Shown here: positions 15,030 to 54,548 of the stretch, piece by piece
Layout: the number at the start of each line of letters is the position of its first letter
Numbering within the stretch: the stretch's first letter is position 1
Assembly (NCBI RefSeq): GCF_004368405.1
Contig: NZ_SBJH01000046.1
Coordinates: 1 to 54,651, forward strand
Origin: Olivibacter sp. XZL3
GTDB taxonomy: Bacteria; Bacteroidota; Bacteroidia; Sphingobacteriales; Sphingobacteriaceae
Length of the DNA stretch: 54,651 bases
Direction of reading: 5' to 3'
Position numbers and translations under genes: made by a program
Notes under the pieces: generated by a model
Database searches by the model: none
What the model saw: the letters and a program-made list of their open reading frames with translations, nothing else
What the model was told of the DNA's origin: nothing

Positions 15030-15838
15030 TGCCCTTTAAGATTTCAACTTTACGAAGTCCATTTATTATAATAGTTTTTGTAATCTGCTCAGCAATTTCG
15101 GCTTGTAAAAGCAAAAAGGCGATAGTGGAGGCGACTAAAGACGAGGAGAAGCGGTTGCCAATAAGCGACCATGCCTTACTAAATGGCATTCTTACCAACC
15201 AGTTAAGCTTTAACACGTTCAGTGCAAAAGCGAAGTCTGCCGTCGCCATTAACAAAGACAGCTACGACGCCACCTTAAATATCAAGATAAAAAATAAAGA
15301 GGCCATTTGGATTTCCATTACTACCTTATTCGGTATTGAAGCTGCGCGCGTGCTAATTACCCCAAGCCGTTTTAAGATGATGAACCGCATTAATGGAACC
15401 TACATCGATGAGCCCTTTGCCTTTTTACACCAATTTGCATCTGAAGGAATCACCTATGACAATCTGCAATCGATAATGTTGGGCAATATCATCGAACAGG
15501 CACTAACGCATACCGATGAAACCCAAACGAGCGGATTAGGATATTCTTTAAGGGGCTCTAAGAATGACTTAAACTTTTTGGTGGAGGTGGACGAGGCCTA
15601 CCGAATTGCCCGTTGTCGTTTGAGCACTTTTAACGGAGCACAGCAGGTTAATACCAGTTATTCCGATTTCGCTACCATAAAAGAGCACCCCATTCCGAAA
15701 GACATCCGCTTGGCAGCTAATTCCGCCGCCGTCAACGTCCAATTACAGCTCAAATATAACCGGATGGCACTCAATGAACCCTTGGAAATGCCTTTTACCA
15801 TCCCGTCAAAATATAAACCCTTAAGGGTGATGCGCTGA
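15029..15838 (+). CDS. DUF4292-family lipoprotein
   Basis: A 269-residue lipoprotein. A hydrophobic signal (residues 11-25) ends in the lipobox ISAC, with C26 as the acylated residue. The mature part is beta-rich with the opening pattern of DUF4292 (LSFNTFSAKAKSAV, then WISITTLFGIEAARVLITP). The ATG overlaps the stop of the TPR gene by one base; an in-frame GTG one codon upstream is less likely. The function is not established. The fold is reminiscent of LolA/LolB-type lipid-binding barrels, so a role in lipid or lipoprotein traffic is a guess only. Confidence 0.82.
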   Translation: MPFKISTLRSPFIIIVFVICSAISACKSKKAIVEATKDEEKRLPISDHALLNGILTNQLSFNTFSAKAKSAVAINKDSYDATLNIKIKNKEAIWISITTLFGIEAARVLITPSRFKMMNRINGTYIDEPFAFLHQFASEGITYDNLQSIMLGNIIEQALTHTDETQTSGLGYSLRGSKNDLNFLVEVDEAYRIARCRLSTFNGAQQVNTSYSDFATIKEHPIPKDIRLAANSAAVNVQLQLKYNRMALNEPLEMPFTIPSKYKPLRVMR

Positions 15839-15907
15839 TCAAAAACTTGTTTTAGTGAGTTAAATAATATTTTAGTACTTTCGTTGGCAATAAATTGGTT
15901 AAAATAA

Positions 15908-15926
15908 CGATGTATTAAATACATCG
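15908..15926. promoter_or_regulatory. Perfect inverted repeat in the leader of the EnvC-like gene
   Basis: CGATGTAT and ATACATCG flank a TAA spacer, 21 nt before the ATG at 15948. A possible promoter box TACTTTCG lies at 15876-15883. The repeat could be an operator or an RNA hairpin near the ribosome entry site; the sequence does not distinguish these. Confidence 0.4.
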
Positions 15927-15947
15927 ATTTATGATTTGGAGAAGAGA

Positions 15948-17225
15948 ATGATTCGGATAAAGTCAATATGCTGTCTGCTATTTTTTCTGGTAATAGGCTT
16001 TTCTAGTTGGGCACAGTCTAGCGCACAATTAAAAAAACAACGGGAGGCGCTTACCCGTGAAATCGAATTATTAAACCAGACCTTACGTTCTACCTCTAAA
16101 GACAAATCCTTATCGCTCAAACAAGTAAATGCGCTCAATGCACAGATCAATTTGAGGGTAAAGAAGATCAACACAATCAATAGCGAAGTTAATCTCATAG
16201 AAAGTCAGATAAATAAAAACACCCAGACCATCCGTTCGCTGCAGAGCGAATTGGCCAAACTGAAAAAGGGTTATGCCTCTATGGTACAGTTCGCGTTCCG
16301 GAATTCGAATGCCTATAATAAATTGATGTTCATTTTTGCCTCTAATGATTTCAATCAGGCCTATAAGCGCCTTAAATATCTGCAACAATTTAGCGAATCG
16401 CGGAAAAAACAAGCTACAGAAATAGAAGAGACACAAAAAAGCATTGAACAAAAAATCGCCGAACTGGCCAACAACAAAAAAGAAAAAGTGGTGCTCCTGA
16501 GCGATCAGGAAAAAGAGAAGCAGGCGCTTGACGGTCAAAAAACGGTTAAATCAAAAGCACTTAACGACTTAACAAAGAAGGAAAAAGAGTACAAGCAAGA
16601 GCTGACGAAGAAACAGCAAGAAGACGCTCGTTTAGCACGTGCCATACAAACTGCCATTCGAAGAGAAATTGAAGAAGCACGCAAAAAAGCGGAAGAAGAA
16701 GAGCGAAGGCGCGCTGCGGAGTTAGCCAAGAAAAATCCAAATGCAAAAGCTCCAGAACCAACTGCCAGAAAAACAGACAAAGAAGCACTTTTATCGACGC
16801 CTGAAGCGGCTAAACTAGCGGCCGACTTCACGGGCAACCGCGGGCGACTTCCATGGCCTGTTGCCTCTGGCTCTGTTACGCAGGGCTACGGACAATACAC
16901 CTATGGAAAAGGTGTTAAAGTTAATAGTAACGGGTTAACCATTCGTACAACAGCCGGAGCTGCCGTACGCGCCGTATTCGATGGGGTTGTATCATCTGTA
17001 GTACAAATGCAAAACCAATATACAGTGCTCATACGCCATGGTAATTACTTTACGGTTTATCAAAACCTGAAAAGTGTAAGTGTTGCCCGAAACCAGAAGG
17101 TAAGTGTCAAACAAACGATCGGTACCGTAGCCGTAGACGCAACAGAAGGAACTTCCGATCTACACTTTGAACTTTGGCAAGGAACTTCACCTATCAATCC
17201 AAGCAGTTGGTTAGCGGGAAATTAG
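15948..17225 (+). CDS. Murein hydrolase activator (EnvC-like, degenerate M23/LytM)
   Basis: A 425-residue secreted protein starting MIRIKSICCLLFF, with a signal peptide ending near SSWAQ, a long coiled coil (about 20-270, rich in K, E, Q and R) and a C-terminal LytM/M23 domain (about 310-425). I chose ATG 15948 over an in-frame TTG at 15936. The zinc ligands of active M23 peptidases are mostly missing: GKGVKVNSNGL replaces the GxxxHxGxD segment, YQNL replaces YxHL, and DLHFEL replaces HxHFE. This is the EnvC pattern, where the domain activates amidases rather than cutting peptidoglycan. It probably acts in daughter-cell separation. Confidence 0.85.
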   Translation: MIRIKSICCLLFFLVIGFSSWAQSSAQLKKQREALTREIELLNQTLRSTSKDKSLSLKQVNALNAQINLRVKKINTINSEVNLIESQINKNTQTIRSLQSELAKLKKGYASMVQFAFRNSNAYNKLMFIFASNDFNQAYKRLKYLQQFSESRKKQATEIEETQKSIEQKIAELANNKKEKVVLLSDQEKEKQALDGQKTVKSKALNDLTKKEKEYKQELTKKQQEDARLARAIQTAIRREIEEARKKAEEEERRRAAELAKKNPNAKAPEPTARKTDKEALLSTPEAAKLAADFTGNRGRLPWPVASGSVTQGYGQYTYGKGVKVNSNGLTIRTTAGAAVRAVFDGVVSSVVQMQNQYTVLIRHGNYFTVYQNLKSVSVARNQKVSVKQTIGTVAVDATEGTSDLHFELWQGTSPINPSSWLAGN

Positions 17226-17258
17226 AAAAAATGGACGCGATATGATAAACGATAAAAA

Positions 17259-17289
17259 TTGTTTATTTAAGCATTTTTGCATAAGTTTG
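17259..17289 (+). promoter_or_regulatory. tatA promoter (-33 TTG, -7 TAAGTTTG)
   Basis: TTG at 17259-17261 and TAAGTTTG at 17282-17289 are 20 nt apart, the expected Bacteroidota sigma spacing. The predicted leader to ATG 17376 is about 80 nt, so tatA can be transcribed separately from the EnvC-like gene. Confidence 0.7.
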
Positions 17290-17375
17290 TAAACTGGACG
17301 TAAGCAGATTACGTATTTTATAAGGAAACAAAAACTACATAGGTAGTATTAGATAAAGATTTTAAATATTGAGTT

Positions 17376-17564
17376 ATGTTAAACACAATTTTGTTACTGG
17401 GTATCGGTGGGCCTGAAATAGCAATTATCGTTCTTGCTTTATTATTATTGTTCGGTGGAAAAAAAATTCCTGAATTGATGCGTGGATTAGGCCGCGGCGT
17501 CAGAGAGTTTAAAGAAGGCCAAGCTGGAACCATTAAGGACGATGTTAAAGAGGAAAAGCAATAA
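17376..17564 (+). CDS. tatA: Twin-arginine translocase subunit TatA/TatE
   Basis: A 62-residue TatA-type protein with an N-terminal transmembrane helix (GGPEIAIIVLALLLLFG), the hinge FGGKKIPELMRGLGRGVREF forming the amphipathic helix, and a short charged tail. TatA multimers form the translocation path for folded twin-arginine substrates. tatC is not in this window. The gene has its own well-spaced promoter and a strong terminator. Confidence 0.95.
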   Translation: MLNTILLLGIGGPEIAIIVLALLLLFGGKKIPELMRGLGRGVREFKEGQAGTIKDDVKEEKQ

Positions 17565-43960: not shown

Positions 43961-44683
43961 TTGCTTGATAAAGTCAATGAAATTAATGTCTGCTTAAGCC
44001 CCGCGCTGATTCACTTACATGATATCAGTAATAGTATTGTGGTGGTAATAGACATTTTTAGAGCCACCACTTCTATGTGCTACGGTTTAGCGAATGGCGC
44101 CGATGGCATCATTCCGGTTGCAGAAGTATCTACTTGTGCGATTTATAAAGACCATGGATATCTACTTGCGGCCGAACGAAACGGCGAAGTGGTGGACGGC
44201 TTCGACTTCGGGAACTCACCGTTTTCGTATGTTGGCGAAAAAGTGAAAGGAAGAACTATTGTATTGACAACCACAAACGGAACCAAGGCTATTCATTTAT
44301 CGCGGGAAGCGAAAAAGGTCGTAATCGGGTCTTTTCTAAACTTGACAGCTCTTTGCAACTGGTTAAGCAAACAAGATGATTCTATTCTATTGGTATGTGC
44401 AGGATGGAAAGACAATTTTAACCTAGAGGACACCGTTTTTGCCGGCGCTGTTATTAATAAACTAAAAGAGAGCCACAAAAAAGGAGATGACGCAGCCATA
44501 GCTGCGGAAACCTTATATTTTACTGCCGAGAAAGATCTTGCCGACTTCCTCAGCCGAAGCGCCCATAGCAAGCGTCTGCAACATTTAGGAATTCAAAAAG
44601 ACATTGATTTTTGTCTGCAAACGGATCTTTTAGAAACTATACCCGTTTTGGAAGGCGATCGACTCGTCGCATTAGAAGCTTAA
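43961..44683 (+). CDS. comB: 2-phosphosulfolactate phosphatase
   Basis: A 240-residue ComB-family phosphatase. It has VCLSPALIHLHDISNSIVVVIDIFRATTSMC, then GERNGEVVDGFDFGNSP-like (AAERNGEVVDGFDFGNSP here), TTTNGTKAI and a VCAGW segment. In archaea it makes sulfolactate in coenzyme M synthesis; Bacteroidota carry it widely, probably for sulfolactate or sulfonolipid precursors. The start is a TTG at 43961; a stop lies only seven codons upstream and no in-frame ATG precedes the conserved CLSPA. Its TAA overlaps the convergent phosphatase remnant by 4 nt. Confidence 0.88.
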   Translation: MLDKVNEINVCLSPALIHLHDISNSIVVVIDIFRATTSMCYGLANGADGIIPVAEVSTCAIYKDHGYLLAAERNGEVVDGFDFGNSPFSYVGEKVKGRTIVLTTTNGTKAIHLSREAKKVVIGSFLNLTALCNWLSKQDDSILLVCAGWKDNFNLEDTVFAGAVINKLKESHKKGDDAAIAAETLYFTAEKDLADFLSRSAHSKRLQHLGIQKDIDFCLQTDLLETIPVLEGDRLVALEA

Positions 44684-44979
44684 ACAACTAGCTCTTTCAA
44701 CAGTTCCTCACAGCGAGCGGCAATCATTTGATATACAGGATCGAACAAGTTATTGTCAAAATAGGGATCTGGCACAACGTCATCCTTTAAAAACAAACTT
44801 ACTTTAGCGCGTGCTGCCGGTGAGCTGGCCATTGCTAATACATCTCGCAGATTAGTTCGGTCCATCACCAAAATTTTATCGTAGTATTCGAAATCCGACC
44901 GGTTAAATTGACGGGCTTTCTGTGCGCTGATATCTACTCCGTACTTCTTGGCAATCGCTATTGACCGCCTGTCGGGACA
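44680..44979 (-). pseudogene. N-terminally truncated low-molecular-weight protein tyrosine phosphatase
   Basis: On the minus strand an open frame ends at 44680. It reads as a LMW-PTP from PDRRSIAIAKKYGVDIS through QKARQFNRSDFEYYD, ILVMDRTN, and VPDPYFDN with the general-acid Asp, to the normal C-terminus. About 98 residues match. The first about 55 residues, including the CX5R phosphate-binding loop that holds the nucleophilic Cys, are absent, and the homology stops at about 44971-44976. Immediately beyond it, on the opposite strand, a permease sequence begins. As it stands this cannot be an active phosphatase. Confidence 0.8.
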
Positions 44980-45602
44980 TAATTGGAGTCGTTAAAGATT
45001 TCCATTTCCAAAACCTTCGGGAAAGGATCAGCCCGTGTATTTTATTCTATGATACCGGCTGGGCCTTGGGCGGTATGTACGTTAAAGCAGCCGCTGGTAA
45101 AACGGCCGAAGCCATCTCTTCTGTAGAAAAGTTATGGAAACAATATAATCCGGAGTATGAATTTCAGTACGAATTTCTAGACGAACGCTTCGATCAACTT
45201 TACAAAAGTGACATTCGGGCAGGCAAGCTTCTGCGCATCTTTGCAGGTATTGCGATCTTGCTTTCTTGTATGGGCTTGTTCGGATTAGTTAGCATCACAG
45301 CGGAGTCGAAGGTAAAAGAAATCGGCATTCGAAAAACTCTGGGAGCCACCATAGGCGATATTGTGCTGCTGGTTTCCAAAAATCTTATCACATTGGTTGG
45401 TCTTTCGCTCGTCATAGCCTTTCCATTAGCTTACTGGCTTATGAACCGATGGCTCAGCAACTACGCTTACCGCACGGATGCTTCTTTATGGATATTTTTG
45501 GGGGCAGGCTCAGCAGTAGTTGCAATCGCCATACTGACCGTATATGCCAAAGCGTCAAAGGCCGCAAGAAAGAATCCTATCCATGCTATACGTACAGAGT
45601 AA
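44976..45602 (+). pseudogene. C-terminal remnant of an FtsX/MacB-like permease
   Basis: The frame reads from DIIGVVKDFHFQNLRERISPC to a normal permease C-terminus (KAARKNPIHAIRTE), about 208 residues: the end of a periplasmic core and the last FtsX domain with three transmembrane helices (LLRIFAGIAILLSCMGLFG onward). Compared with the intact 794-residue paralog just downstream, about 590 N-terminal residues and the first helices are missing. The frame is still open, so the loss appears recent or is an assembly join. A TTG at 44961 could in principle start translation, but lies in the phosphatase half. Confidence 0.8.
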
Positions 45603-45607
45603 GGCGA

Positions 45608-45775
45608 ATAAAAGGTATAAGGTTCTATGGCATAAGGCGAAAATGGAAAGCTAATGAGTAGTAGGGCTGCAATGGCACAGACAGTAGCTCTCGATTAACG
45701 ACAAAATGGGATTTACCGCTGCCCGTAGCGCTAACGGCTTATGGCTGATAGCTTGCAGCTAAAAGCTAAAAAATT
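45608..45775. repeat. Heptad-periodic intergenic tract (AAGG and GCT words)
   Basis: GG of AAGG words falls at 45614, 45621, 45629 and 45636. Then GCT recurs at 45730, 45737, 45744, 45751, 45758 and 45765, six times at exactly 7 nt with the other four bases varying, ending 8 nt before the ATG at 45776. The tract lies between the truncated permease and the first intact one. Confidence 0.85.
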
Positions 45776-48160
45776 ATGATAAAAAACTATCTAAAAATCG
45801 CATGGCGCAACATTTGGAAAACGAAAGCATTTTCCATTATTAACATCTGTGGCTTGGCGGTTGGAATGACCGCTTGCTTCCTTATTGCGTTGTATGTCAA
45901 CTTCGAACAGAGTTACGATCGTTATCATCAAAAAGCCGACCGCATTTACCGTTTGGTATGTGACGTCAAAACACCAACCGAAACGATAAATGCTAATATC
46001 ACCTCCGGCCCCATGGCTATGTATGCCGCAAAGGACCTTCCTGAGGTGGAAAACTACGTACGGATTCTATCAAATAGTCTGCTGATACGAAAAGACAACC
46101 ACAAATATCAAGAAAGCAGTTTGTTCTTTGCGGATTCTTCGCTCTTTCAGTTATTTGATTTCCCATTAATCGCAGGAAATCCGAAAACCGCATTAAAAGA
46201 ACCTTTCAGCATTGTTTTATCGGAATCGGCCGCAAAAAAGTATTTTGGAAAGGAAGATCCAATGGGCAAAAGTCTGCTGATAACGGACGATGGCTTTAAC
46301 AGCAAGGTAACGGGAATAATGAAAGATATTCCCGAAAACTCGCAGTTTAAAGGCGATGTCTTTATTTCTATGGTTACCTTAATCAAAATGGCCAATTTCA
46401 ACTTTGATGAGCAATGGGGAAATTTCGGTTTTACTTCCTATTTATTACTGAAACCCAATACCGACCCCTCCCGCCTAACCGCTAAGTTCCCTGCTTTTTT
46501 GACCAACCGTGTGGGCAAAGAAATGGATCAGATGAAAATGCATTATACCCTTTTTCTGGAACCATTGAAAGAGGTCTATCTGCATTCAAAAAGAGGCGGT
46601 TTTGTTAGCGGTAACATAAACAACGTATACGTTTTTGCTGTTGTGGCCCTATTTATCCTGCTTATTGCTTGTATCAATTTTATTAATCTGTCGACCGCGA
46701 GAGCTGTAGAACGGGCCAAAGAGGTGGGCATTAGAAAAGTGGTTGGCGCCTACCGCATACAGATTACCCGACAATTTATCGGTGAATCCATTTTGATCTG
46801 TTTATTGGCTTTTGTAATCTCTCTTTTGCTGTGTTTGGTGTTAATTCCCTATTTTAATTTTCTGGCCGGTAAAGAGATTAGCGGAGGTATATTCCTTCAC
46901 CCTCGCTATATCCTTTTCTTGTTTTTATTGGCTTGTTTAATCGGCCTGCTGGCGGGCATTTATCCAGCGCTTGTATTATCCTCTTTTAAACCCGTAACGG
47001 TATTAAAAGGAAAGTTCTCGTCAAACACAAAAGGCTTATTATTAAGAAAAACTTTAGTTGTTGTACAGTTTGTGGTTTCCATTGCGCTTATTGCAGGTAC
47101 ATTGATTGTAAATCGCCAGTTAGCGTATATGCGAAATCAAAACTTAGGATTCAATAAAGACCGGGTATTGATTCTGCAAACCAATGGAGACGCCAAGAGT
47201 AGAATTTTAAAGGACGCGATAGTGAGCGTTCCGGGTGTATTAGCCAGCACCGTTTCGGGAGCGGTTCCGGGCGGAGAGAATCCGGTAGCCTATTCGGAAA
47301 TTGAGAACAAGCAAGGCGACATGCAAATCGCAAATCTCCCGGTCTACTTTGTAGACTATAACTACCTGCCATTATATAAAATCGAACTGGCGGCCGGCCG
47401 TACGTTCTCGCCTGACTTTGGAACCGATACCGCACAGGCCATGATCTTAAATGAAAGTGCTGTTAAACTCTTCGGTTATGCAAAACCAGCGGACGCCATT
47501 GGTAAAAAATATTCGCAATGGGGAAGCGAGGGAAAAATCATCGATGTGATCAAGGACTTCCATTTTAAATCGCTGCAATCAAAAATTGAGCCGCTAAGTA
47601 TGCGCTACGGCCAAGGAAACGGAGGAGGCATGGTTTCACTCAAAATCGATGGACCGCACATGAACACCGCCTTACAGGCCATTGAACAGAAATGGCAGGA
47701 GATCATTCCTAACCGGCCATTTGATTATTTTTTTGCAGACGAATTTTTTGATCGGCAATACCGAGCAGAAAACCGATTTGGAAGCCTGTTTTTAAATTTT
47801 TCCGTATTAGCGATTTTTATTTCCTGTTTGGGTTTATTTGGGCTGGTATCTTATCATACAACACAACGTTATCGGGAAATTGGCATCCGGAAAGTCTTAG
47901 GCGCAAGTGTTTCCACGATTGTAAGGCTTCTATCGCTTGATTTTTTGAGACTAGTGGCTATATCCATTTTTATTGCTTCTCCTTTAATGTGGCTTTTTAT
48001 GAGTAAATGGCTGACTGATTTCGCTTATCATATAGATGTCAGTTGGTGGATTTTCGCCGTTGCCGGAAGCATTGCTATTGCGATTGCCCTTTTGGTCATC
48101 AGTTCATTAACCATTAGGGCCGCGATGGCCAACCCTGTGAAATCTTTACGCAATGAATAG
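45776..48160 (+). CDS. FtsX/MacB-like ABC transporter permease
   Basis: A 794-residue permease with two FtsX-type membrane halves. A first helix follows MIKNYLKIAWRNIWKTKAFS, then a MacB-type periplasmic core (about 50-240) and an FtsX domain (about 285-420) with VGIRKVVGAYRIQITRQFIGESI. A second core (about 430-660) and final FtsX domain (about 670-794, LGIRKVLGASVSTIV-like) follow. The Bacteroidota form carries two halves in one chain. No ATP-binding partner is in the window. Paralogous to the 48245 gene and the remnant at 44976. Confidence 0.9.
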   Translation: MIKNYLKIAWRNIWKTKAFSIINICGLAVGMTACFLIALYVNFEQSYDRYHQKADRIYRLVCDVKTPTETINANITSGPMAMYAAKDLPEVENYVRILSNSLLIRKDNHKYQESSLFFADSSLFQLFDFPLIAGNPKTALKEPFSIVLSESAAKKYFGKEDPMGKSLLITDDGFNSKVTGIMKDIPENSQFKGDVFISMVTLIKMANFNFDEQWGNFGFTSYLLLKPNTDPSRLTAKFPAFLTNRVGKEMDQMKMHYTLFLEPLKEVYLHSKRGGFVSGNINNVYVFAVVALFILLIACINFINLSTARAVERAKEVGIRKVVGAYRIQITRQFIGESILICLLAFVISLLLCLVLIPYFNFLAGKEISGGIFLHPRYILFLFLLACLIGLLAGIYPALVLSSFKPVTVLKGKFSSNTKGLLLRKTLVVVQFVVSIALIAGTLIVNRQLAYMRNQNLGFNKDRVLILQTNGDAKSRILKDAIVSVPGVLASTVSGAVPGGENPVAYSEIENKQGDMQIANLPVYFVDYNYLPLYKIELAAGRTFSPDFGTDTAQAMILNESAVKLFGYAKPADAIGKKYSQWGSEGKIIDVIKDFHFKSLQSKIEPLSMRYGQGNGGGMVSLKIDGPHMNTALQAIEQKWQEIIPNRPFDYFFADEFFDRQYRAENRFGSLFLNFSVLAIFISCLGLFGLVSYHTTQRYREIGIRKVLGASVSTIVRLLSLDFLRLVAISIFIASPLMWLFMSKWLTDFAYHIDVSWWIFAVAGSIAIAIALLVISSLTIRAAMANPVKSLRNE

Positions 48161-48244
48161 CCGGATAAAGGTAGCATTCAAAACCGTAGGGCACCGTGTT
48201 TTGAAATGACTAGATAGAAGAACACCATTAATCTTGATACTGTT

Positions 48245-50617
48245 ATGATAAAAAGCTATTTCATAATCGCCTTTCGAAACCTATGGAAAACCAAAGGATA
48301 TAGCTTCCTGAATATTTTCGGATTGGCTATAGGAATAACCTGTGCATCACTTATTTTTCTGTGGGTGGAGAATGAATTGAGTTATGATGATTATTTTGCC
48401 AATAAAGATCTGTTATACAATATTAAATCGAAGCAGACTTACGGAGAAAATACCTACGTCTTTAGTGCAACACCGGGTAAGTTGGCGGAAGCGATCAAAG
48501 AAGAAATACCGGAAGTAGCTGAAGCAACCCGTATTAACAATGGCGTTTCCAAACTGTTCGTCAAAGACGACAAGAGCCTATACCAAACAGGCGCCTATGT
48601 TGACCCCGCTTTTGTAAATATGTTTTCCCTTCATTTTATCGAAGGAAGTCCGAAGATGGCTTTAGTCGACATCCATTCCTTAGTGATCACCGCCTCTATG
48701 GCGAAGCGGCTTTTCGGAGAGGAAAAAGCGTTCGGAAAAATGCTTAAAGTCGGCAAAGGCGATAGCTACAATATCACCGGTGTTGTAGAAGACCTACCAC
48801 AAAACACCTCCCCCCAGCTTCGCTTCGATTGGCTGATCCCATTCAAAAACTATGAGCAAGTTGAAGGAGGGCTGCAGTTGTGGGGCAGCAATAGTACCGA
48901 CACCTATGCGCTGTTAAAACCTAATGCCAATCTGGAAGCGGCTAATGCCAAACTGCGTCACTTTGTTGCCAAAAAAACAAACGATGAACATCCTACTGCC
49001 AGCAATTTCTTTTATTCCCTTAAACGTTTCCATCTGTACAACAGTTTTAAAAACGGATTTGAACAAGAAGGTGCAATTAAAAATATCCGGCTATTCAGTG
49101 TCATTGCTTGGGTAATTATCCTCATTGCTTGTATCAATTTTATGAATTTAGCCACCGCCCGCTCGGAAAAACGGGCACGTGAAGTGGGTGTTAGAAAAGT
49201 AGTGGGAGCCGAGAAAGAGACCTTAATCGGTCAATTTATAGGAGAATCCCTCCTATTGGCCACACTCTCCGCCCTGCTATCTATTGCTTTGCTATACTTA
49301 TTCTTATCGCCATTCAACGCGCTAGTAGACAAAGCTCTCGACGTTAACCTTTTTACTCCGGTGCACTGCTTATTTCTTCTTGCTATTGTATTGATCTGCG
49401 GATTGCTTTCTGGCAGCTACCCCGCTTTCTACCTCTCTTCCTTCAATCCGATTGCAGTATTAAAAGGGCTTAAATTCAAATCAGGAAATGCCACCTCCAT
49501 CCGCCGAGGGCTGGTAATTATTCAATTTGCTGCTTCTATCACCCTAATTATCTGTACCGTTCTTATTTTTCAGCAAATTCAACATGCCAAAAACCGCGAC
49601 CTCGGTTTTGATCGAAGTCAAGTCATTTCCACGGAAATCCAAGGAGATATGGGGAGACATCTGGAGGCATTAAAAAACCAGCTAAAAGCTACTAGTGTGG
49701 TTGAAAATGTGGGTGGAAGTGCTCGCAACGCGCTTAGCATCTATTCCAATACAGGATCGATCAACTGGGAAGGCAAAGATCCAAACTCCGATGTGTTGAT
49801 CGGGTTTAACTTTATAGACGCTGACTTAATACCTACACTAGGTATGCGTCTCGCGGAAGGCCGCAATTTTAATCCTAAATTAGCTGGAGATACTACCAAC
49901 GTAATTATTAATCAGGCCTTTGCCAAGTTAATCAAAAAGCAAGGTTCTGTTGTAGGGACACAGCTTAAGACTGGCGATGGTTCGCCCGCCACGATCGTCG
50001 GCGTGCTTCACGATTATATATACAATAACATGTATAGCGCTGCCGAACCGTTGATATTCGTTCCCTCTGTTCCTTCAGAAGGCACGCTCTACATCAAAAT
50101 AAAAAGCGGTGAGCCTTTATCCGAGGCCATTGGAAAAATCGAAGCAGTCGTCAAAGCCAATAATCCCAGCTACCCCTTTGAATATCATTTTATGGACGAA
50201 GATTTCGAGCAAAAATTCAAAAGTGAAACGATGATCCAACGCTTGGCCGGCGTCTTTGCGGTACTATCCATTACCATATCGTGCTTAGGCTTATTTGGAT
50301 TAGCTGCCTTTATGGCCGAAAGGAGAAGGAAAGAAATGGGAATCCGTAAAGTATTGGGAGCAAGCATATCATCGTTAGCCAATCTATTGAACAAAGAGTT
50401 CGTTTTGCTGGTGTTGGTATCATGCCTTATCGCCTTCCCCCTAGCCTATTGGTTCATGGAAAATTGGCTCGAAAAATACCAATATCGCATCCATCTTCAT
50501 TGGTCGGTATTTGTTTTAGCCGGACTAGGCGCGCTATTCATCGCCTTAATAACTGTCAGTTCCCAGGCTATTAAAACCGCTTTGTTAAATCCGACGAAAA
50601 CTTTAAGAGAGGACTAA
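48245..50617 (+). CDS. FtsX/MacB-like ABC transporter permease, second intact copy
   Basis: A 790-residue permease with the same double-FtsX, double-core layout as its upstream neighbour. It starts MIKSYFIIAFRNLWKTKGYSF, contains VGVRKVVGAEKETLIGQFIGESLL near residue 315 and ends with an FtsX domain holding MGIRKVLGASISSLANLL. It lies 84 nt after the first. The two proteins differ throughout, so they are old duplicates rather than recent copies. They might form a heterodimer around a shared ATPase, or respond to different substrates; neither is shown. Confidence 0.9.
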   Translation: MIKSYFIIAFRNLWKTKGYSFLNIFGLAIGITCASLIFLWVENELSYDDYFANKDLLYNIKSKQTYGENTYVFSATPGKLAEAIKEEIPEVAEATRINNGVSKLFVKDDKSLYQTGAYVDPAFVNMFSLHFIEGSPKMALVDIHSLVITASMAKRLFGEEKAFGKMLKVGKGDSYNITGVVEDLPQNTSPQLRFDWLIPFKNYEQVEGGLQLWGSNSTDTYALLKPNANLEAANAKLRHFVAKKTNDEHPTASNFFYSLKRFHLYNSFKNGFEQEGAIKNIRLFSVIAWVIILIACINFMNLATARSEKRAREVGVRKVVGAEKETLIGQFIGESLLLATLSALLSIALLYLFLSPFNALVDKALDVNLFTPVHCLFLLAIVLICGLLSGSYPAFYLSSFNPIAVLKGLKFKSGNATSIRRGLVIIQFAASITLIICTVLIFQQIQHAKNRDLGFDRSQVISTEIQGDMGRHLEALKNQLKATSVVENVGGSARNALSIYSNTGSINWEGKDPNSDVLIGFNFIDADLIPTLGMRLAEGRNFNPKLAGDTTNVIINQAFAKLIKKQGSVVGTQLKTGDGSPATIVGVLHDYIYNNMYSAAEPLIFVPSVPSEGTLYIKIKSGEPLSEAIGKIEAVVKANNPSYPFEYHFMDEDFEQKFKSETMIQRLAGVFAVLSITISCLGLFGLAAFMAERRRKEMGIRKVLGASISSLANLLNKEFVLLVLVSCLIAFPLAYWFMENWLEKYQYRIHLHWSVFVLAGLGALFIALITVSSQAIKTALLNPTKTLRED

Positions 50618-50744
50618 ATTAGTGCTATTTTCATTGAATTTGATTTGCTCATTTAAAGTAATGAGGCTTGCTTCGCGCGCTTACAAGGACGAGTTATACA
50701 TCCGGCCAAAAACGACGCTATAATTTACTAAAAACAAAAATAAA

Positions 50745-50765
50745 GCTAATGGCTAAAACTGAGAG
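50745..50765. repeat. Short GCTAA heptad tract
   Basis: GCT at 50745 and 50752 are 7 nt apart (GCTAATG GCTAAAA), then irregular. Same word family as the tracts near 34947 and 45730. Confidence 0.5.
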
Positions 50766-50816
50766 CTACATGCAACATCCCGAATTGACTTGCGTCTTAT
50801 AACAAAACGAACCCTT

Positions 50817-51800
50817 ATGAAGAAAATCTTCCTACTATTTATGGCATTAAGCAGTAGCTGCTTTTTCGCCGGCGCTCAAGATAATGACACGCCTTACCTA
50901 ACAAAATCGCTTCGAAGCGACCATATTCGTGCAGTAGATCTGCAAACCTCGGGCGGAAGTTTGAGCGTTATCGGCGTAAACGATTCAGAAGCGCGTCTGG
51001 AAGTATTCGTGCACGGAAACAATGGCAATAACAGCCTAAATAAAGAAGAAATCGATCAACGGCTAAAGGACAATTACGACCTACAGATAAGTTCCAATAA
51101 CGGTCAATTAATTGCAATCGCCAAACCCAAAAGTGGATTTAAAAATTGGAAGAAGTCACTATCCATCTCATTCAAAGCTTATGTACCGCAAGCAGCATCA
51201 GCCAAACTGAAAACCAGCGGAGGAAGCCTCTCCTTAAATGGAATCAATGGTCCTATTGAGGGACAAACTTCCGGGGGTAGTATTAAAGTAGCTCATGTAA
51301 AAAGCAATGTAAACCTAAAAACCAGCGGAGGCAGCATTAATGCAGATGACGTACGGGGTGACTTGCTATTACATACATCGGGCGGCTCGATTAAGCTTAA
51401 TAATTTAAAGGGAAAGACGGACGCGAGAACCAGCGGCGGGAGCATCGGAGCAACCGATATTGACGGCGAACTAATAGCGAAAACTTCCGGAGGGAGCATT
51501 CGTGTAGACCGAATGGCAGGTAGCGCGGATTTAGCTACAAGCGCAGGGAGCACCTCCGTTAATATGCTAAGTGTGGATAGATACCTCAGAATAGATGTTT
51601 CGGCGGGAAGCGTTAACCTGCAGCTTCCTATGGATAAAGGATTGGATCTAAACTTAGCCGCAAGGAAAGTGAACCTTCCTTCCTTAAGCAATTTTTCCGG
51701 AACGAGGGAAAAAGATCGCGTAGTTGGAAAAATCAACGGCGGAGGCGCTAGTGTCGACGTCCATGTAAGTGTCGGAAGCCTAAACATTGAAGCCAATTAG
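50817..51800 (+). CDS. Secreted TSGGS-repeat beta protein (DUF4097-like)
   Basis: A 327-residue secreted protein with a signal peptide (MKKIFLLFMALSSSCFFAGAQ). The mature part has seven or so TSGGS motifs: SGGSLSV, SGGSLSL, SGGSIKV, SGGSINA, SGGSIKL, SGGSIGA and SGGSIRV, spaced about 20-22 residues, then SAGST and SAGSV variants. This is the DUF4097-type parallel beta-helix pattern, each turn one motif. I chose ATG 50817 over an in-frame TTG upstream, since it directly precedes the signal peptide. Surface or periplasmic; the function is unknown. It follows the permeases on the same strand. Confidence 0.85.
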   Translation: MKKIFLLFMALSSSCFFAGAQDNDTPYLTKSLRSDHIRAVDLQTSGGSLSVIGVNDSEARLEVFVHGNNGNNSLNKEEIDQRLKDNYDLQISSNNGQLIAIAKPKSGFKNWKKSLSISFKAYVPQAASAKLKTSGGSLSLNGINGPIEGQTSGGSIKVAHVKSNVNLKTSGGSINADDVRGDLLLHTSGGSIKLNNLKGKTDARTSGGSIGATDIDGELIAKTSGGSIRVDRMAGSADLATSAGSTSVNMLSVDRYLRIDVSAGSVNLQLPMDKGLDLNLAARKVNLPSLSNFSGTREKDRVVGKINGGGASVDVHVSVGSLNIEAN

Positions 51801-51817
51801 CCCCTGCTTAAACTACT

Positions 51818-51854
51818 AATAGGCCACGTTTTGGTCAACAATACGTGGTCTATT
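51818..51854 (+). terminator. Hairpin after the TSGGS-repeat gene
   Basis: AATAGGCCACGT (51818-51829) pairs with ACGTGGTCTATT (51843-51854) with one wobble. There is only a short T-rich tail. Confidence 0.7.
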
Positions 51855-52019
51855 ATCGCAAAAAGTACGCAAAATATTGAGTAAAGGTATGAAACAAAAC
51901 CGAGTTTAACCTTTCGGATCAGACAGCCTGCACCTATCTTTCGCTTTTCGTCGTATTTTTATCGGCCTATTCTGCTCTTCAAGGATGAAGACGATGTTTA
52001 TATAGACGCTTATAGAACA

Positions 52020-53021
52020 ATGAAAACACTATTTTCCCTTTGCAAAGGTCATATCCGGAACATTCTTTGGCTTTCACTCATTCTCGTGGCTGCCTGTAAA
52101 AAAAGCAACGATGTCGAACCAGCCTCTATACAGATTACTTCCGCTGAATACGATGGAAAATTGCTTTTTGTCAATAAAAATAATTTTCAAATAACCACCG
52201 ATAAAGAGGCGATCTTTAGCGCCGACGACGGTCGCATTAATATGACTGAAGAGGGCCTGGTAAAACGACTAACTTCTGGAGAAGTCGTTAGCATCGAAGT
52301 TGCTCCGAAGTCGCAACCTGAAAACAAAACGCGTTTTTACCTATTTGGAGCAACGGACACGAATCACGATAAACCTCAGATTACCTATAACGGGAAGGGG
52401 GCAACAGACACTTATAACTCCTACCTAAAAGGTTGGGCCACTTTACAGAAGTTACCGGTTAATAATGAGACTTACGCCCTTGTATTGCGCCATGCTGATG
52501 CAGACCAAGGGGTGGATTACTCGCTAAACCACGACAATGCCGGGCCGGCTAATTGGTGGAAGTCGAAAGACCAAGCATTGGCACGTCAGCTTAACGAAGA
52601 AGGACGAACGCGCGCAAAAGAACTTGGCGGTAATCTAAAAGCCTTAGGCTATCCAATTACCCGTATTTATTCAAGTGAGTTTAATCGGGCAATAGAAACG
52701 GTTGAACTAATGGATCTCAATTTACCGATTACGGAAGACGGTCGATTAAACCATCCCTCTTACAATAAAGGAAACTTATTCCAAGGCCTGATTAAAATCT
52801 TACAGAATACGCCTAGGGATAACAAAATCACCCTGATAGCCACGCATCATCCTATCAATGAAATAATCAACAGTGGCGGCTATCCAACGTTCCCCGATGT
52901 CTCCCCTTTTAATTGGACCGGGTTGTATTTTGTAAAAATTGCAGCAGACGGTACAATCAGCTATGAAGGTGCGGTGTCTTGGGGAATGGTCAATTATTGG
53001 AGACAGCTAACGAATCCATAA
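52020..53021 (+). CDS. Histidine-phosphatase-family lipoprotein
   Basis: A 333-residue lipoprotein (lipobox VAAC, C26). A beta-rich N-terminal region (about 35-125), with features like a bacterial Ig-like group 2 domain, precedes a histidine phosphatase domain (about 150-330). The catalytic region reads VLRHADADQG, giving the R-H pair of the RHG motif but with Ala-Asp in place of Gly. SSEFNRAIETVEL holds the second Arg and ATHHPINEI supplies the second catalytic His. The layout resembles SixA-like branches. It should sit on the envelope surface; substrate unknown. Confidence 0.8.
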   Translation: MKTLFSLCKGHIRNILWLSLILVAACKKSNDVEPASIQITSAEYDGKLLFVNKNNFQITTDKEAIFSADDGRINMTEEGLVKRLTSGEVVSIEVAPKSQPENKTRFYLFGATDTNHDKPQITYNGKGATDTYNSYLKGWATLQKLPVNNETYALVLRHADADQGVDYSLNHDNAGPANWWKSKDQALARQLNEEGRTRAKELGGNLKALGYPITRIYSSEFNRAIETVELMDLNLPITEDGRLNHPSYNKGNLFQGLIKILQNTPRDNKITLIATHHPINEIINSGGYPTFPDVSPFNWTGLYFVKIAADGTISYEGAVSWGMVNYWRQLTNP

Positions 53022-53161
53022 AAAGTTCAAAAGCTTTCGTGAAAAACGAAAAGGGCAAAAAGGCAACAGGCGCTATTTGCAAAAAACAATACATATTCGT
53101 TCTAAATAAAGAATTCCCGTTCTATTCATTTCAATTGCTGCTTTATTAACACGATAAGCCT

Positions 53162-53169
53162 TATATTTG
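53162..53169 (+). promoter_or_regulatory. Candidate cydA -7 promoter box (TATATTTG)
   Basis: TATATTTG matches TAnnTTTG, predicting a leader of about 50 nt before ATG 53223. A TTG at 53135-53137 is 24 nt upstream, somewhat too far to be a confident -33. Confidence 0.45.
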
Positions 53170-53222
53170 AGAAAGTTCAGTGGCACAGGCCTTAGGTTCT
53201 ATCAAATCAATAAACGCTCATT

Positions 53223-54530
53223 ATGGACGATTTCCTCGCCGCCCGTTCCCAAATGGCCCTCTCGTTGGGCTTTCATATAATCTTTGCCTGCATCGGGATG
53301 GTGATGCCCTTTTTTATGGCCATCGCCCATTACAAATGGTTACGGACCGGAGAGCTGGTCTATAAAAATGTGACCAAGGCATGGAGTAAAGGCGTGGCCA
53401 TTTTTTTTGCCACAGGGGCCGTCTCAGGAACGGTACTTTCTTTTGAATTAGGCTTATTATGGCCTACTTTTATGGAACACGCCGGCCCTATTTTTGGAAT
53501 GCCCTTTTCATTAGAAGGAACGGCTTTTTTCATTGAAGCTATCGCTTTAGGCTTTTTCTTATATGGTTGGGATAAGTTTAACCCTTGGTTTCATTGGTTC
53601 ACCGGTGTCATTGTAGGTATAAGCGGCTTAGCATCGGGTATTTTAGTAGTATCCGCTAATGCGTGGATGAACAGTCCAACCGGCTTCGAATATATAAACG
53701 GACAGTATACCAACATCGATCCAATAGAAGCCATGTTCAATGATGCTTGGTTTTCGCAAGCACTTCATATGACCTTAGCGGCCTTTGTCGCCACCGGCTT
53801 TGCGGTAGCCGGCGTTCATGCATTTATGATCAAAAAGGGAAAAAACGTCCATTTTCATCAAAAGGCCTTTCGTATTGCCGCTATTTTTGCAACTGTTGCC
53901 GCGGTACTACAACCACTAAGCGGGGATATATCCGCAAAAGACGTCGCACAAAGGCAACCGGCAAAACTCGCAGCCATGGAAGCACATTTCAAAACAGAAG
54001 AAAACGCTTCGCTCGTTATCGGCGGACTTGTAGACGAAAAGACCAAAGAAGTCAAGTACGCACTAAAAGTCCCAGGGCTCTTAAGCTGGATGGCTCACGG
54101 AGCTCGTGAAACAGCTGTTACAGGCCTGGAAGATATTCCCGAAAACGATCATCCTCCCGTAGCTATTACCCATTATGCCTTCCAGGTAATGGTGGGGCTT
54201 GGTATGCTGATGCTAGCGCTTTCGATTATCTATTTCATCGCGCTCGCCAAAAACCGATTGTGGCTCCAAAGCCAATGGCTTCTGAATTTATTCATTATCG
54301 CAATTCCATTAGGTTTTATTGCCATTGAAGCAGGGTGGATGGTAACTGAAATAGGTCGGCAGCCATGGATTATTTATGGCGTTATGCGAACGGTGGACGC
54401 AGTTACACCCATGCCCGGCATCGTTTATTCTTTCTATCTATTTACAGCTGTTTATTTATCCTTGTCGGTTATCGTCGCTTTTCTACTTTATCGGCAGATT
54501 AAGATGGTTGGAAAAATTTATGATGTGTAG
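53223..54530 (+). CDS. cydA: Cytochrome bd ubiquinol/menaquinol oxidase subunit I
   Basis: A 435-residue CydA with about nine transmembrane segments. The axial heme His corresponding to E. coli H19 is H18 (LGFHIIF), a second heme His is H182 (QALHMT), and GRQPW (378-382) is present. It is shorter than the E. coli form (about 520 residues), mostly because the quinol-binding Q-loop is short, which is usual in Bacteroidota and in the short Q-loop class. It reduces oxygen with high affinity. cydB would be expected next, but the window ends 121 nt after the stop. Confidence 0.94.
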   Translation: MDDFLAARSQMALSLGFHIIFACIGMVMPFFMAIAHYKWLRTGELVYKNVTKAWSKGVAIFFATGAVSGTVLSFELGLLWPTFMEHAGPIFGMPFSLEGTAFFIEAIALGFFLYGWDKFNPWFHWFTGVIVGISGLASGILVVSANAWMNSPTGFEYINGQYTNIDPIEAMFNDAWFSQALHMTLAAFVATGFAVAGVHAFMIKKGKNVHFHQKAFRIAAIFATVAAVLQPLSGDISAKDVAQRQPAKLAAMEAHFKTEENASLVIGGLVDEKTKEVKYALKVPGLLSWMAHGARETAVTGLEDIPENDHPPVAITHYAFQVMVGLGMLMLALSIIYFIALAKNRLWLQSQWLLNLFIIAIPLGFIAIEAGWMVTEIGRQPWIIYGVMRTVDAVTPMPGIVYSFYLFTAVYLSLSVIVAFLLYRQIKMVGKIYDV

Positions 54531-54548
54531 AAGGAAGGTGTCTAAAAA

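Follow-up and report, generated by a model that had tools for sequence, protein, structure and literature searches.

The window, a 54,651-nucleotide stretch of DNA from Olivibacter sp. XZL3, contains two incomplete genes whose truncated sides meet at a single point (Table 1). As the earlier note had it, a minus-strand remnant of an LMW protein-tyrosine phosphatase gene abuts a plus-strand remnant of a MacB/FtsX-type ABC permease gene; both are present, they meet where the note had placed them, and the join is confirmed as part of the assembly. Two complete genes frame this pair, on the left a gene that we take to be comB-like and on the right an intact permease, hereafter FtsX2, which is followed by another one, FtsX3. 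FtsX1 designates the permease that precedes FtsX2 in related genomes, and to which the remnant was compared.

Table 1. Features surrounding the join, with positions given in the window.
Feature	Position	Strand	Basis or remark
comB-like gene (presumed name), intact left flank	43961..44683	+	adjoins the phosphatase gene in three other Olivibacter genomes
LMW protein-tyrosine phosphatase, C-terminal remnant, 99 aa	44680..44980	-	Pfam LMWPc; alignment with O. jilunii P8502
Join (putative deletion)	44979..44980	.	bases homologous to both flanks
MacB/FtsX-type ABC permease, C-terminal remnant, 207 aa	44979..45602	+	Pfam FtsX; match in O. jilunii P8502
FtsX2, intact permease, right flank	45776..48160	+	89/88 percent amino acid identity to the genes after FtsX1 in O. 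jilunii P8502/O. domesticus DSM 18733
FtsX3, intact permease	48245..50617	+	unlike the third permease in O. jilunii P8502 and in O. domesticus DSM 18733

The phosphatase remnant reads Q-L-C-P-D-R-R...ELVV, with a stop codon at 44680-44682, and shares 83 percent amino acid identity with the C-terminus of the O. jilunii P8502 protein. The Pfam LMWPc profile covers it at positions 46-144 only, leaving positions 1-45 unmatched, and comparison with the O. jilunii protein gives a loss of about 46 residues, where a loss of about 55 had previously been estimated. The missing part includes the CxxxxxR motif (CLGNICR in O. jilunii), which forms the N-terminal catalytic loop of LMW protein-tyrosine phosphatases; the remnant thus lacks the loop by which a functional enzyme of this type was recognized, and the ORF list holds no minus-strand ORF of at least 80 aa with an ATG, GTG, or TTG start over it. 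A PF01451 search of the genome of the strain returned three matches, among which was the remnant (profile positions 44-144). The other two genes align with the O. jilunii phosphatase for no more than 80 residues, at 42-50 percent identity, and the assembly yielded no further phosphatase of the truncated type. Both stand directly before a gene presumed to be ACR3-like, one of them also being near a presumably ArsR-like gene, and the two clusters, on contigs C66 (L181, 1659-4248) and C46 (L182, 4082-6661), are similar. Arsenate reductase genes are typically placed directly before an ACR3-like permease gene.

The O. jilunii permease has 783 residues; the permease remnant covers 577-783 of these, with 57 percent identity, and lacks the first 576. 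The deep truncation described in the earlier note is therefore real, but its start lies at residue 577 rather than about 590 residues into the protein. Pfam analysis of the remnant revealed one FtsX match over the cut-off, no MacB_PCD match, and a RseC_MucC match below its cut-off; the three intact copies scanned, from which a functional MacB/FtsX-type permease was defined, combine MacB_PCD with two FtsX stretches over ca. 790 aa, an architecture that the remnant does not have. The join creates an ORF of 213 codons (44961-45602), whose TTG start lies in sequence derived from the phosphatase gene; caution is called for against annotating this ORF as a working permease. As also previously remarked, both reading frames are open up to the join, with neither a stop nor an inner gap relative to their counterparts in related genomes. 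Both remnants are most likely non-functional. Scans for regulatory signals returned one promoter-like site against 2.3 expected, using the sigma-70 pattern, which suits Bacteroidota poorly, and no terminator against 1.2 expected.

On the phosphatase side, DNA homology to O. jilunii P8502, O. domesticus DSM 18733, and a third Olivibacter genome (G003) ends exactly at 44980 in all three cases. The start of the permease-side homology varies between 44974 and 44979 with the relative and the method, being found at 44976 (O. jilunii) and 44974 (O. domesticus) at the DNA level and at 44979 at the protein level. The bases demonstrably common to both flanks are 44979-44980, and perhaps up to about six are shared; in the relatives, the sequence is GGACAT or GGGCAT at the phosphatase end and, to give one instance, GGCAT at the permease end. 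The transition had been assigned to 44971-44980, and it does fall inside this range, but the demonstrable overlap is restricted to its right end.

The locus was compared across five Olivibacter genomes, that of the window included, the other four belonging to other species; the join was observed in the window's genome only. In O. jilunii, the gene order is comB, phosphatase (minus strand), histidine kinase (minus strand), sigma-54-type response regulator (minus strand), HlyD-type gene, ABC ATPase, FtsX1, and FtsX2, the domains of the kinase, regulator, HlyD-type protein, ATPase, and FtsX1 being confirmed by Pfam, and the order in O. domesticus is identical. Genome G003 has kept the genes from comB through the ABC ATPase, with no permease at that place; a 328-aa gene directly follows the ATPase gene there (L026, 6245-7976). 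The layout differs in genome G002, in which comB lies beside a gene that looks to us like a carbamoyl-phosphate synthase large subunit gene and has no adjacent phosphatase ORF. The earlier note had recommended looking in relatives for intact counterparts of the cut genes and for what lies between them. The full phosphatase, the regulators, the HlyD-type gene, and the ATPase occur at the locus in three genomes out of the four (all but G002), two of which, O. jilunii and O. domesticus, also carry FtsX1 and FtsX2. In these two genomes, phosphatase and permease are divergently oriented, with ca. 5.2-5.7 kb between their 5' ends. The two genes had been described as unrelated, which they are, but since they are divergent near-neighbours in these species, there is nothing odd in their pairing. 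A scan of genome contigs for comB yielded 80 loci, with a phosphatase within 3 kb downstream in two, both from Olivibacter; five of the 78 loci without phosphatase have less than 3 kb of DNA downstream, and the scan gave no new informative locus.

Both flanks follow this common framework. The comB-like protein is 89, 82, and 75 percent identical to its counterparts in O. jilunii, O. domesticus, and G003, respectively, and gene order is kept. Window DNA at 43501-44980 matches O. jilunii up to the interior of the phosphatase gene and, from 44976, it matches FtsX1. Right of the join, the window is collinear with O. jilunii over 45655-48172 and 49094-54533, except for a non-orthologous third permease. 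Coordinate subtraction indicates that the window is short of ca. 7.55 kb relative to O. jilunii and ca. 7.06 kb relative to O. domesticus. FtsX3 shares only about 30-35 percent identity with the third and fourth permeases of these two species and clusters in the tree (100/99) with genes from G002 and from another genus. Permeases of this type are numerous in the genome of the strain: a query with the O. jilunii permease had 36 matches listed, fragments included, and many FtsX-type permease genes of ca. 800 aa lie outside the window at about 72000-122000 of contig C115. The FtsX2 homologue of genome G022 is divided among three ORFs (L029, reverse complement, 15305-17376) and looks broken or frameshifted.

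Based on the layout of the sister genomes, it is very probable that a genuine deletion by illegitimate recombination left the two gene remnants in the Olivibacter lineage of the window. A single chromosomal deletion would have removed ca. 7.1-7.6 kb, a figure that rises if another permease copy was present, and brought together the 3' parts of the LMW tyrosine phosphatase gene and of the MacB/FtsX-type permease gene. The sensor kinase, the sigma-54-type response regulator, the HlyD-type adaptor, and the ABC ATPase would have been lost with it, and FtsX2 would now lack the ATPase and adaptor found close to it in O. jilunii and O. domesticus. The earlier proposal that both 5' parts and the intervening DNA were deleted is thus strongly supported by the sister genomes, as well as by searches of the remaining assembly, which gave no ortholog-grade match (see below). 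Illegitimate recombination is suggested by the very short or absent homology at the ends. The window resembles a deletion of this type in having two truncated genes fused with little or no shared sequence, missing intervening genes, and flanks collinear with relatives. In a study in Salmonella, the confirmed junctions are reported to share more than 10 bp (PMC3411829), and the overlap in the window, with two demonstrable bases and perhaps up to six, is shorter. Several observations fit less well with a deletion: the identity of the permease remnant to its O. jilunii counterpart is a mere 57 percent, compared with 89 percent for FtsX2, and it may thus derive from a different copy, the layout of G002 differs, and the join was seen once among the five genomes of the genus.

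Database searches were also directed at the missing DNA. A 9.2-kb O. jilunii query against the genome of the strain recovered the two flanks, but nothing beyond weak matches for the DNA in between (40 of the 60 candidates scored). The best-scoring protein matches were 26 percent identical for the kinase, 38 percent for the regulator, 26 percent for the HlyD-type protein, and 51 percent for the ATPase, while O. jilunii and O. domesticus orthologs share 86, 87, 96, and 97 percent, respectively; the kinase had 39 matches, of 24-44 percent and all partial. No full-length ortholog of FtsX1 was found in the genome of the strain, the best full-length match reaching 41 percent (63 percent between O. 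jilunii and O. domesticus). The missing genes and the lost ends of both cut genes have no ortholog-grade match elsewhere in the assembly, from which their absence is a direct observation, and relocation of the whole block to another part of the genome was rejected on this ground.

Short N-terminal FtsX matches in the genome of the strain reach 52 percent, and three such pieces, on contigs C105, C110, and C62, were examined. Those on C105 (L211, 5266-5553) and C62 (L213, 2507-2986) run to contig ends, while that on C110 does not; this suggests that repeated FtsX-type genes broke the assembly at the C105 and C62 ends. The three pieces are 32-57 percent identical to FtsX1 proteins and 35-58 percent identical to FtsX2 or FtsX3. 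The C105 piece shares 52 percent with O. jilunii FtsX1 over its first 60 residues; within this stretch, 40-49 of the 60 residues are shared by seven of the nine other FtsX1 proteins, 37 and 28 by the other two, and 28 and 24 by the FtsX2 and FtsX3 of the window. These pieces being paralog-grade and not specific to FtsX1, the idea that the lost 5' end of FtsX1 sits at a contig end was abandoned.

An assembly or library chimera, already raised in the earlier note, would have wrongly joined two unique sequences and dropped the real intervening DNA. The assembly is a draft of 122 contigs, the join is known from a single genome and from assembly sequence alone, and FtsX-type genes are cut off by the ends of contigs C105 and C62. 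However, completeness is listed as 100 percent, and the flanks lie close to each other, in unchanged order and orientation, in O. jilunii and O. domesticus, which a random misjoin of unrelated loci would not be expected to produce, and the dropped DNA should appear in another contig, where the searches found no ortholog-grade match. Usual assembly k-mers are longer than the bases shared at the join, and a repeat-driven misjoin is unlikely between flanks with so little demonstrable overlap and no long shared sequence. Since a chimera must join near-neighbours by chance, in the correct order and orientation, and also lose what lay between them, a true deletion is much more likely; the layout of the sister genomes and the search for the missing DNA reduce the chimera to a small residual probability.

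The divergence of the permease remnant raises the question of which copy was cut. Among 399 genomes of the family, with at most seven candidates scored per genome, no closer source exceeding 62 percent identity was found. In a 37-row tree of FtsX-type ORFs longer than 700 aa from the 12 fetched loci having any, together with three rows from the window, the remnant falls (99/91) with copies of G084, G093, and G047 and with the second of the two copies in G108 and in G114. Genomes G108 and G114 carry two tandem FtsX1 copies after the HlyD-type gene, and the remnant could likewise be a second, paralogous copy in a lineage whose ancestor had two in tandem, in which case the deletion would measure ca. 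10 kb and include the whole first copy. However, the remnant sits on a long branch, a smaller tree of 18 selected rows lowers the support to 93/87, and a placement of the remnant among Olivibacter copies is not rejected (p-AU 0.235 when joined to O. jilunii only, 0.0685 when joined to the three Olivibacter rows). A second-copy origin is thus a serious candidate that we hold as somewhat doubtful; it is a variant of the deletion explanation, not exclusive of it, and the deletion may have removed an additional permease gene.

The event was previously described as recent, and it probably is, although the two remnants do not speak with one voice. No stop or indel occurs in the 99+207 codons relative to relatives. 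About 4.1 percent of random substitutions would create a stop in these 918 bases, and stops by themselves set the 95 percent bound on free drift at 0.080 substitutions per site, which becomes 0.014-0.036 when indels are included at assumed rates of 0.2-0.05 per substitution. With O. domesticus as outgroup, the phosphatase remnant has four window-only residue changes against two specific to O. jilunii (p 0.69, a comparison of low power); its changes by codon position (11 vs 3, 5 vs 2, and 22 vs 14) show a mild excess that goes against a recent event. Dating by synonymous changes failed, most pairs being saturated.

The permease remnant, in contrast, is much diverged, with 43 changes against 14 (p 0.00015) and an end branch of 0.67-0.91 compared with 0.02-0.26 for the other FtsX1 rows. 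It has changed 15 of 82 otherwise invariant residues, when each of 14 relatives changed 0 to 4 of 67-71. This divergence, like the codon-position excess in the phosphatase, would fit an old deletion after which the permease remnant drifted or was still selected as a small protein. Yet free drift would allow at most ca. 0.01-0.08 substitutions per site (95 percent, with the assumed indel rate), the open and indel-free frames argue against long decay, and the residue excess in the phosphatase is not significant. Moreover, FtsX3 is strongly diverged though full length: of its otherwise invariant C-terminal residues, 18 of 127 have changed, while seven other sequences have each changed between 1 and 8 of 110-117, so that the divergence of the permease remnant need not follow from its truncation; FtsX2 is not accelerated (10 window-only vs 22 O. 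jilunii-only changes). An old deletion is accordingly considered unlikely. It is also very improbable that the 213-codon ORF is translated into a small C-terminal permease fragment that has been retained, with the orphaned FtsX2 and FtsX3 using an ATPase encoded elsewhere, such as the candidate at C115:121522-122187, which is 51 percent identical to the lost one.

On the basis of Pfam MacB_PCD, FtsX, HlyD, and ABC_tran domains, the locus of O. jilunii and O. domesticus resembles an ABC efflux locus of the MacAB type that includes a two-component regulator. The window has the same neighbours and an orthologous FtsX2, but its genome is devoid of the regulators, the adaptor, the ATPase, and most of the first permease. 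No literature on this locus was found among the matches listed. The deletion would also break what seems to be the only phosphatase of this type in the genome. The most likely interpretation is ordinary gene loss in an accessory efflux locus, and the window would illustrate clearly how one deletion can strip such a locus of its regulators and engine while permeases remain.
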